Shown here: positions 1,867 through 4,605 of the stretch, piece after piece
How positions within the stretch are numbered: position 1 is the stretch's first letter
How the letters are laid out: the number at the start of each line of letters is the position of its first letter
NCBI GenBank assembly: GCA_946539625.1
Contig: CAMNHT010000087.1
Span: 1-6,095, forward strand
DNA: 6,095 bases
Origin: an uncultured Clostridia bacterium
GTDB taxonomy: Bacteria; Bacillota_A; Clostridia; Christensenellales; CAG-138
Direction of reading: 5' to 3'
Made by a program: the position numbers and the translations under genes
Notes under the pieces: generated by a model
Seen by the model: only the letters and a program-made list of their open reading frames with translations
Told to the model about the DNA's origin: nothing
Database searches by the model: none

Positions 1867-4605
1867 ATGCGCAAACGAGTTCTTTCCTTCTTCCTGATCC
1901 TGATATTGTTTTTTGCCATCTTCCCCGTCTCGTTTGCCGAGGGTGAGAACGATCCGTCTGTTCCCTCCGCCGATGCGCAGGACGTCGCGCAGTTCGGTCC
2001 GGGTGCCGTCGTCGAACGCGACGAAAGCGGAAATCCCGTCTCCGTAAACGGCTGTCCCGTCCGGGAAGTGACAGCCGGGATCAATCTCAGATCGAACAGG
2101 GCAGCGTATCAGTACAGCGTCTGGTTTACGGATTACCCCTTCTTTCAGCCCGCAACGCAATACGACGGCAATCTTGCCGTGATGTCGCTTGCAATGGCTC
2201 TTTCCGCAAATCGCGCCATGAATCCGTCGGAGGACCTGAAAACCTGGTTCGATCCCTCGCTGCATCTTGAAAAATATCTGACCGACGCCGGATTCTCCGA
2301 TATCCGCAAAGACGACTATTCCAAGGAGACCAGCATGTACACGATCTCCATGGCGATGGGCGCGCGATATATGGAGCACGAAGGTGAGGAGCCCTTCACA
2401 CTGATCGCGATCGGCGTGTGCGGCGGCGGGTACGGAAATGAGTGGCAGTCCAATATGACGCCCGGAAGCGGCGAGCTGCACAAGGGCTTTCTGTCCGCGG
2501 CACAGCTCGTCATCGACCGGCTTGCGGGTTATATTCTGACGAACGGCATCGAAGGCAATATCAAGGTCTGGATCTCCGGCTTTTCCCGTGCAGCCGCCGT
2601 CTCCAATGTCACTGCGGGACTTCTTGTGCGCGACGGCATGTTTCCGAAGGAAGACGTGTATGCCTATACGTTCGCAACGCCCGCCGCGGTGCACAACGCT
2701 CCTTTGAGCGGCTATGAAAACATTTTCAATATCCTGAACCCGATGGACGTCGTTCCGCAGGTCATGCCGTATGACTGGGACTTCTCACGGTTCGGGACCG
2801 ATCTCTTTATCCCCGTCACGGAGTTCTCCTCAACCGGCGACACCTATACCTACTCCCGCGCGGCGTTTGCGCGCGACACCTTCGGGATCGAGGCGAATTA
2901 CAGTCCCGCGCTGAATCTTCGCATGCGTCTGCTGCTGTCCATGATCATGGACGTGGCAGAAGACCGCGCGGAGTATAACGCGCATCTGCAGCCCGCCGTC
3001 GTCGGCATCATGCAGAACGGCAACGCTTCCAACCTGCTCTCAACCGTGCGCAGCCTGCTGCTGACCGTCAAGGACAAGGGCAGCGCGGGCAGAACAAACG
3101 TGGACGCACTGGTCAACTACGTCTCCCGCGTGTTCGGCAATCTCCTGACGCGCACGGAGCTGGACGAAGCCAACCGGAATACCGGCAGCATTGTATTTCG
3201 TCTGTTCAACGAGCATTGCGAGGACGCGTACCTCGCAAACGTCGATCTGATCCGCGCAGGCGTATTCGAGGACGATACCGAATTCACCTACGTTTTCATC
3301 CGCGGCCCCGTCGATGTCACATATCTTTCCGACGCGAGCGGTCCGAACGTCAGCGTCACGCTGACTGCAAAGGGCGAGCTTTCGGCGGACAAACTCCGTT
3401 GGGAAGCAAGAGGAAACGACCCATCCGAGCTGGACGCCTATATGCATCAGCGGTACATGGAACGCATCGGCGACACGACCGTCGTTGCCGTTCCCCGCGA
3501 TGCGAACATCGTCATCGGCTATGAAGCAGTGCGCAGCGGCACCGTGGAAGTCCGTTATGCGGACTGCTCCGTACACGCCGCCGCAGTTTATCACGGCGGA
3601 AGCGCTGCGCCGCAGCAGGTAAAAAAAGGCGACGCAGGCATGGCGTTCCGGTCCGACAGGGGCGTCGGCATTTCCTCGGATGACTTTGAACCGAGGGACT
3701 TTACCGCGGCGGAGATCGCGTCATTTATCGGCATCGACTCGGCCGGGCTGAACTGGCGCGTCACGCTGATGCTCCTTGCCGCGCTTGCCGGCGTCGTCGT
3801 CACGGTGCTCATCTGGGTCGGGCTGCTTCTGAACCGTACACCGAAAAAGCCCGGCGTTCCCGTCTGGCTGTGTCTCGGCGTCTTCTGCATCGCCATGCTC
3901 GAAGCGGAGCTTGCGTTCTGGTTCTTCGCGGACCATACGAATCTGCGTATGCTCTGGAAGATGATCTTAGGCGCGGCGCTTCTTGTCATCTTTCTGATCC
4001 GCCATTGGAGATCGAAGCGCACGCTTCTGATGCTGCCCGGATTCTTCATGCTGATCGCGGCGGACGTCGTGATGTGCCTGTACGTTCTGCAGGGCGCGAT
4101 CCTCTTTACGGTCGCGCACGCGCTGCTGATCTTCGCGTTCCTGTACAAATCGCCGATGCCGCTCAAGATGTGGATCCAATGGTTCGTGGTCTCCGCAATC
4201 GCGACCGTACTGATCGTGTTCGGCTTTCTTCCGAAGATCGGAACGCTCGCGTGGGGCGCGGCAGGCTACGCAGTCGTTCTGCTGCTCTTAAACTACACCG
4301 CCGGCGGGCAGCTCAATCGCGCACGGTTCGCCGCACGGCTGTTCCTGCTTTCGGAAGCGATCCTTCTGATCTTCATGACCGTATTCAATGAGCCGATCCT
4401 GCACATCCTCTCCGTGCTGATGTTCGATACAGCGCTTCTCTTGATCGCCGTCAGCAAAACGGGCGTCGAGCAGCCGAAGGAAGAACCCGCACCGGGGGAG
4501 GAACCGGAATCGGAAGAAAAATCCACGGAGGAGAAAGAATCCGAGCCGGAGGAAGAATCCGCGTCGGAAGAGCCTCAAGAGGAACCCGCGCCGCAGGCGG
4601 ATTGA
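1867..4605 (+). CDS. Exported lipase-like alpha/beta-hydrolase fused to a YhhN/TMEM86-like membrane domain
   Basis: A 912-residue envelope protein. Residues 1-24 are a signal peptide with likely cleavage at VSFA/EG. Residues ~70-460 resemble lipase-class-3-like hydrolases of Clostridia: a Gly-rich GGGYGNEWQSN loop (186-196), the nucleophile elbow GFSRAA with Ser240, an acid candidate Asp294 in NPMDVVPQ, and a histidine candidate His450 in HCEDAYL. A beta-rich region (~479-572) starts with GPVDV. About nine hydrophobic helices follow (632-862). Helix 1 is a connector; the rest resemble YhhN/TMEM86 (lysoplasmalogenase) through Lys698, AADVVM with Asp733, Ala-His751, and LLSEA with Glu830. An acidic Glu/Pro/Ser tail (~866-912) ends the protein. 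The hydrolase should act outside the membrane, probably on lipids or esters; the substrate is unknown. It is the last gene of the operon, followed by a terminator. The hydrolase call is strong; the YhhN call rests on motif resemblance read by eye. Confidence 0.82.
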   Translation: MRKRVLSFFLILILFFAIFPVSFAEGENDPSVPSADAQDVAQFGPGAVVERDESGNPVSVNGCPVREVTAGINLRSNRAAYQYSVWFTDYPFFQPATQYDGNLAVMSLAMALSANRAMNPSEDLKTWFDPSLHLEKYLTDAGFSDIRKDDYSKETSMYTISMAMGARYMEHEGEEPFTLIAIGVCGGGYGNEWQSNMTPGSGELHKGFLSAAQLVIDRLAGYILTNGIEGNIKVWISGFSRAAAVSNVTAGLLVRDGMFPKEDVYAYTFATPAAVHNAPLSGYENIFNILNPMDVVPQVMPYDWDFSRFGTDLFIPVTEFSSTGDTYTYSRAAFARDTFGIEANYSPALNLRMRLLLSMIMDVAEDRAEYNAHLQPAVVGIMQNGNASNLLSTVRSLLLTVKDKGSAGRTNVDALVNYVSRVFGNLLTRTELDEANRNTGSIVFRLFNEHCEDAYLANVDLIRAGVFEDDTEFTYVFIRGPVDVTYLSDASGPNVSVTLTAKGELSADKLRWEARGNDPSELDAYMHQRYMERIGDTTVVAVPRDANIVIGYEAVRSGTVEVRYADCSVHAAAVYHGGSAAPQQVKKGDAGMAFRSDRGVGISSDDFEPRDFTAAEIASFIGIDSAGLNWRVTLMLLAALAGVVVTVLIWVGLLLNRTPKKPGVPVWLCLGVFCIAMLEAELAFWFFADHTNLRMLWKMILGAALLVIFLIRHWRSKRTLLMLPGFFMLIAADVVMCLYVLQGAILFTVAHALLIFAFLYKSPMPLKMWIQWFVVSAIATVLIVFGFLPKIGTLAWGAAGYAVVLLLLNYTAGGQLNRARFAARLFLLSEAILLIFMTVFNEPILHILSVLMFDTALLLIAVSKTGVEQPKEEPAPGEEPESEEKSTEEKESEPEEESASEEPQEEPAPQAD

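Follow-up and report, generated by a model that had tools for sequence, protein, structure and literature searches.

The closest described systems to the protein considered here belong to two separate families: the class 3 lipases (e.g., Rhizomucor miehei lipase, 4tgl; Aspergillus feruloyl esterase A, 1uza; and the plant phospholipase A1 AtDSEL, 7x0c) and the YhhN/TMEM86 lysoplasmalogenases (PF07947; human TMEM86A/B and bacterial YhhN). For TMEM86A, one study proposes eight residues, K43, G81, D82, H104, G182, S189, D190, and Y213, and reports that alanine at any of these except G81 reduces activity, mostly to <10%; the loss is smaller at H104 and G182 of TMEM86A and at H108 and S182 of TMEM86B, and alanine at Asp190 or Tyr213 leaves <10% activity in both enzymes (PMC11994398). 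In a Mycobacterium tuberculosis study, the corresponding K, D, H, D, and Y group together in the interior of a modelled YhhN protein whose topology is inside-inside. Many YhhN-encoding microbes are without plasmalogen-making machinery, and the question of the YhhN substrate is raised there (PMC9052158). In Clostridium perfringens, plsA and plsR make plasmalogens (PMC9702350). Here, we analyze a 6,095-nucleotide stretch of contig CAMNHT010000087.1 from an uncultured Clostridia bacterium (the whole of which we call the window), in which one gene joins an exported lipase to a YhhN-fold membrane domain. This lipase-YhhN architecture is sound and undescribed in the literature that we searched, where we found no account of such a fusion. 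The reading that we prefer, while stopping just short of giving it an even chance, is a surface lipase coupled to a repurposed YhhN-fold membrane pocket.

The first-pass annotation of this DNA had called the open reading frame (ORF) at 1867..4605 a fusion of a lipase-like hydrolase with a YhhN/TMEM86-like membrane domain, and both the coordinates and the fusion hold. The ORF runs from an ATG at 1867, with a purine-rich, ribosome-site-like stretch just 5' of it (by eye), to a stop at 4603-4605; an alternative in-frame ATG at 1834 is used by an identical-sequence database record of 923 amino acids. Within this one ORF, PF01764 (class 3 lipase, Lipase_3) matches at 35.9 bits (E 8.3e-09) and PF07947 (YhhN) matches at 33.5 bits (E 4.3e-08), both above the Pfam curated cut-offs used as thresholds (22 and 25.6 bits, respectively), and the membrane part searched alone against PF07947 gives 38.9 bits (E 9.7e-10). 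The protein is a member of both families. Its parts are as follows, all on the + strand:

1867..4605, +: fusion gene, 912 amino acids; exported class 3 lipase, helix, YhhN-fold domain, and acidic tail (ORF, Pfam, model)
1867..1938, +: putative signal peptide, residues 1-24; probable cut after VSFA (by eye), model helix at 2-17, low confidence at 21-28, hydropathy peak
2164..3243, +: class 3 lipase fold, residues 100-459, interrupted at ~324-428 by a helical insertion (Pfam, model, fold match)
2455-2769, +: Pfam lipase core, residues 197-301 (PF01764)
2584..2586, +: Ser240, candidate nucleophile in GFSRA
2746..2748, +: Asp294, triad candidate
3214..3216, +: His450, triad candidate
3274..3726, +: extracellular beta-rich part, residues 470-620 (secondary structure of model)
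3754..3831, +: extra transmembrane helix, residues 630-655, beginning with the near-invariant W630-R631 (alignment, model)
3856..4452, +: YhhN-fold domain, eight helices, residues 664-862 (Pfam 693-863, hhalign, models, fold match)
4471..4602, +: acidic C-terminal tail, residues 869-912, predicted to be intracellular (sequence; low model confidence)

The ectodomain has the profile match, the alpha/beta-hydrolase fold, and the Ser-Asp-His triad of a class 3 lipase, and the fold match, at residues ~100-459, covers all three triad residues. Ser240, Asp294, and His450, a set first picked out by eye, are identical in 111/111 sequences of over 780 amino acids (the window protein and its identical record counted) and in 81/81 rows of a wider alignment that reaches down to 23% identity. 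Based on the fold and the invariant triad, the exported domain is predicted to cut a lipid ester. The nucleophile elbow reads G-F-S-R-A, and the last Gly of GxSxG is replaced by Ala in 98% of 59 sequences. In contrast to the class 3 lipases named above, the window protein has GxSxA, an ectodomain of ~600 residues in which the His is preceded by a helical insertion and followed by a beta-rich part, and a link to a polytopic membrane domain. Related lipase domains also occur in other settings: L134 (1235-2968, -) is a 577-residue ectodomain relative with a signal-like start and without the membrane domain, from a genome that also has the fusion; L135 (211-3381, +) is a large protein with one C-terminal helix (by eye); and L136 (2-2707, -) is a large protein in which the lipase domain lies behind a seemingly repeat-rich N-terminal part (by eye).

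Does the membrane part have a YhhN fold? The first-pass annotation had made its reading depend on a profile or fold match, and the match is significant: profile-profile comparison by hhalign with 26 standalone YhhN proteins gives a probability of 99.2% (E 1.7e-19). The motifs that it had aligned by eye (AAD733, AH751, and S829-E830) are in register with those of the standalone proteins, and its “about nine” membrane helices correspond to helix 630-655 plus eight at 664-862 in a confident model (predicted local distance difference test score, 88.8). Among fused members, 48/58 membrane domains match YhhN at E 1e-3. The models and loop charges predict eight helices with the N and C termini of the YhhN part both inside, and Lys plus Arg are denser in the loops predicted to be inside than in the outer ones in 81/81 rows (0.27 versus 0.066). 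If the signal peptide exports the lipase, helix 630-655 must cross the membrane towards the cytoplasm, which leaves the two ends of the YhhN part inside. K698, D733, E830, E681, and H846 lie 2 to 8 residues from outer helix ends (H751 lies 11), which would place a polar site towards the lipase side; by helix position, Asp733 and Glu830 are both predicted to be in the outer membrane half.

Residues were mapped by hhalign and by a merged alignment of the fused family with the 26 standalone proteins (25 from fusion-bearing genomes plus Escherichia coli YhhN); human TMEM86 numbering was tied in via the motifs and the equal 23-residue Asp190-Tyr213 spacing, with the human sequence itself outside the alignment. 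The mapped positions on the + strand are given below:

3907..3909, +: Glu681, near-invariant among the fused proteins (76/81 rows; standalone YhhN, 7/26)
3958..3960, +: Lys698, equivalent of TMEM86A Lys43 (K in 79/81 rows)
4063..4065, +: Asp733, equivalent of TMEM86A Asp82 (D in 78/81 rows)
4117..4119, +: His751, equivalent of TMEM86A His104 (merged alignment)
4330..4332, +: Ala822, corresponding to TMEM86A Gly182 (merged alignment)
4351..4356, +: Ser829-Glu830, corresponding to TMEM86A Ser189-Asp190 (merged alignment)
4402..4404, +: His846, near-invariant among the fused proteins (80/81 rows; standalone YhhN, 2/26)
4423..4428, +: Phe853-Asp854, corresponding to TMEM86A Tyr213 and the residue that follows it (hhalign, merged alignment)

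At the eight TMEM86A positions, in order, the window protein has K698, A732, D733, H751, A822, S829, E830, and F853; that is, four of the seven activity-relevant positions (K698, D733, H751, and S829) are kept, and three are changed (A822 for Gly182, E830 for Asp190, and F853 for Tyr213). The 26 standalone proteins have K in 26, G81 in 13 (the others have Ala), D82 in 26, H104 in 25, G182 in 25, S189 in 26, D190 in 25, and Y213 in 26. The window domain has in common with the YhhN/TMEM86 lysoplasmalogenases the Pfam and profile match, the eight helices, the predicted inside-inside topology, and the K43/D82/H104/S189 equivalents; it differs in sitting behind an exported lipase and an extra helix, in the three changes, which run through its clade, and in the W630, R631, E681, W772, and H846 that are newly near-invariant in the fused family. 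E. coli K-12 YhhN (L001 1752-2378, +) has Asn at the Asp190 place, and by this token the namesake of the family may not be a standard lysoplasmalogenase.

The residues of the putative pocket vary by lineage. Over 76 fused rows (L025 counted twice, as L108), the K43 place holds K in 74 and the Asp82 place holds D in 71; the Asp190 place varies, with 21 rows holding D, 35 G, 9 E, and 8 N. In the window's clade, E stands at the Asp190 place in 9/10, with F853 and A822 each in 10/10. In the Erysipelotrichaceae-led group, 43/49 have G or N at 190 and 32/49 have Y for His104. In Coriobacteria, the Asp190 and Tyr213 equivalents are intact in 7/7 rows (6 loci), and the fused domain has the full set of K, D, H, G, S, D, and Y in 4/4 genomes examined. 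E830 occurs in 34 of the 111 protein-set sequences, 33 of them with FD at 853-854, a recurrence that argues for a fixed, clade-wide variant and not a sequencing slip. The first-pass annotation had hedged that the second domain might be “altered or a sensor,” and this is closer to the evidence than its main proposal. Not visible in that first reading was that the change at 830 is accompanied by A822 and F853, where standalone YhhN proteins have Gly and Tyr. With Glu and Phe at the Asp190 and Tyr213 places, the case for a vinyl-ether hydrolase is weakened: judged by these residues, vinyl-ether cleavage is doubtful for the window protein and plausible for the Coriobacterial members with the full set, and the former should not be called a lysoplasmalogenase on sequence evidence, as the label is premature.

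The YhhN domain is nevertheless no relic and is not dead, as its selection and its new near-invariant residues (W630, R631, E681, and H846) attest. The ratio of nonsynonymous to synonymous substitution rates (dN/dS, by a simple counting method) against nine close loci is 0.09 to 0.44 for the membrane part and 0.11 to 0.25 for the ectodomain; the membrane value is the higher in 4/9 comparisons, and two values are >0.3. The most conserved membrane-part positions (W630, H846, K698, D733, R631, E681, W772, and G743) are 93 to 100% conserved versus a median of 37%, and they are mainly charged or aromatic and within helices. On a lipase tree built by a quick method, with 21/78 inner branches open, the changes needed are 2 at 698, 3 at 733, 4 at 681, and 1 at 846, and 7, 12, and 16 at 830, 751, and 829, respectively.

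The architecture also recurs in related genomes, which the first-pass annotation had asked to be checked. A search of 5.8 billion proteins, with the 7993 best candidates scored, found at least 164 relatives, and both domains are annotated in 95 of the 120 listed (precomputed annotation, counted by hand with the window's own record included). A scan of 84,980 species, one genome each, gave 305 relatives, and the set used here is the best 80 loci; 76/80 hold an ORF matching both domain profiles (incomplete in L008, L023, and L048), two (L019 and L077) carry the halves split between adjacent frames, and two (L024 and L035) extend to the end of the DNA retrieved. By record title, the fusion occurs in Clostridia, Atopobiaceae and other Coriobacteria, Erysipelotrichaceae, Lachnospiraceae, Mogibacterium, and Spirochaetes, and many relatives come from ruminant gut sites. 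In 36 fusion-bearing genomes, the ectodomain profile finds, besides the fusions, one ectodomain-only relative (L134), together with differently built proteins that are looser relatives and match part of the profile.

Could the two domains act in sequence on plasmalogens? The first-pass annotation proposed a two-step enzyme in which the first domain takes off the sn-2 acyl chain and the second splits the vinyl ether of the resulting lysoplasmalogen. In the window's clade, such an enzyme would feed on the plasmalogens of others. Class 3 lipases usually attack the sn-1 ester, which sits poorly with the first step. In favour of the proposal are the conserved fusion with a YhhN fold, found across several phyla, the 4/7 key residues kept, and an acid at 830; of the changed positions, Asp190 and Tyr213 weigh most, and the third change, Gly182 to Ala, is the milder in TMEM86A (PMC11994398). 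The expected co-occurrence with plasmalogen synthesis genes is not supported for the window's clade. PF09989 occurs in 0/8 genomes of this clade (bins that may be incomplete) and is above cut-off in 17/36 fusion-bearing genomes, 15 of these in ORFs of ≥800 residues, a filter of our own choosing; control matches fall in 4/14 named genomes. We take this family to be the marker of plasmalogen synthase. An intact Asp190 is not associated with it (8/16 versus 6/18, p 0.49, in the 34/36 genomes with a readable row). A plasmalogen-synthase-like ORF does occur in three of the four Coriobacterial genomes with the complete residue set, and a strict two-step enzyme is best sought there. A separate YhhN protein occurs in many of the 36 genomes, including the marker-less window-clade genomes L084, L085, L086, L087, and L091, and the standalone residue set includes 5/8 genomes of this clade. 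Since close relatives are without the marker, the lipid substrate is probably taken from outside the cell, and rumen bacterial lipids, described as rich in plasmalogens (PMC3587585), would make an external substrate available. In total, we regard a two-step plasmalogen enzyme in the window as rather unlikely.

We give still less credence to a lipid sensor or regulator, in which the YhhN pocket binds a lysolipid or fatty acid and alters lipase activity or signals inward via the acidic tail. Altered catalytic residues under purifying selection are consistent with this idea, and, of 58 fused membrane domains, one has a match to 7TMR-DISM_7TM, a signalling family (E 2.2e-4); however, a profile search of the window protein found no effector domain on the inner side, the C-terminal tail varies in length and sequence among relatives, and outside the window's clade no neighbour gene recurs at a fixed place beside the fusion. 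Least probable, and by our estimate a long shot, is that the YhhN part merely tethers the lipase. Related ectodomains that are, by eye, secreted (L134) or held by one C-terminal helix (L135) would fit a plain anchor, as would the variation at the Asp190, His104, and Tyr213 positions within the fused family, but a single helix would suffice for this purpose, the charged and aromatic residues within the helices are what is most conserved, and the best loci that deviate from the two-domain ORF look split or cut short.

We therefore return to a surface lipase coupled to a repurposed pocket. In this proposed mechanism, the exported lipase cuts an ester of an extracellular lipid while hanging on the helix that leads into the eight-helix YhhN domain, whose conserved charged residues are predicted to lie in the outer membrane half; the membrane-bound product could then enter the YhhN pocket from the same side. 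The putative pocket in the window's clade keeps Lys698, Asp733, His751, and Ser829, with Ala, Glu, and Phe standing where TMEM86A has Gly182, Asp190, and Tyr213, and the fused family has gained the near-invariant E681 and H846. Because of these substitutions and gains, we posit that the pocket would more likely bind, move, or process the lipid product by an altered chemistry than carry out standard vinyl-ether cutting. We further speculate, as a generalization that we ourselves find somewhat improbable, that the fusions form a previously undescribed class of single-protein machines for lipid degradation, spread over several phyla, whose surface lipase hands lysolipid directly to the YhhN-fold pocket in the membrane; Coriobacterial members would perform both steps of plasmalogen breakdown, and the window's clade and the Erysipelotrichaceae would have evolved a new chemistry around K698, D733, E681, and H846.

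What do YhhN domains act on? A natural fusion with an extracellular lipase connects a YhhN-fold domain with the degradation of lipids on the cell surface, and it offers a direct route to this question. The family also provides a natural series on one scaffold, from canonical to altered active sites, for studying vinyl ether cleavage. If the two steps are coupled, the fusion would give gut anaerobes a route to use the plasmalogens of other organisms.

Two genes lie directly upstream of the fusion gene in the same direction and may share its transcript; these neighbours come and go among close relatives. A T-box leader lies ahead of thrS on the opposite strand, scoring 60.3 bits (E 7.3e-13), below the Rfam gathering score of 93.

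602-1579, +: polysaccharide deacetylase gene (PF01522)
1592-1837, +: TIGR04076 protein gene
322-498, -: T-box leader
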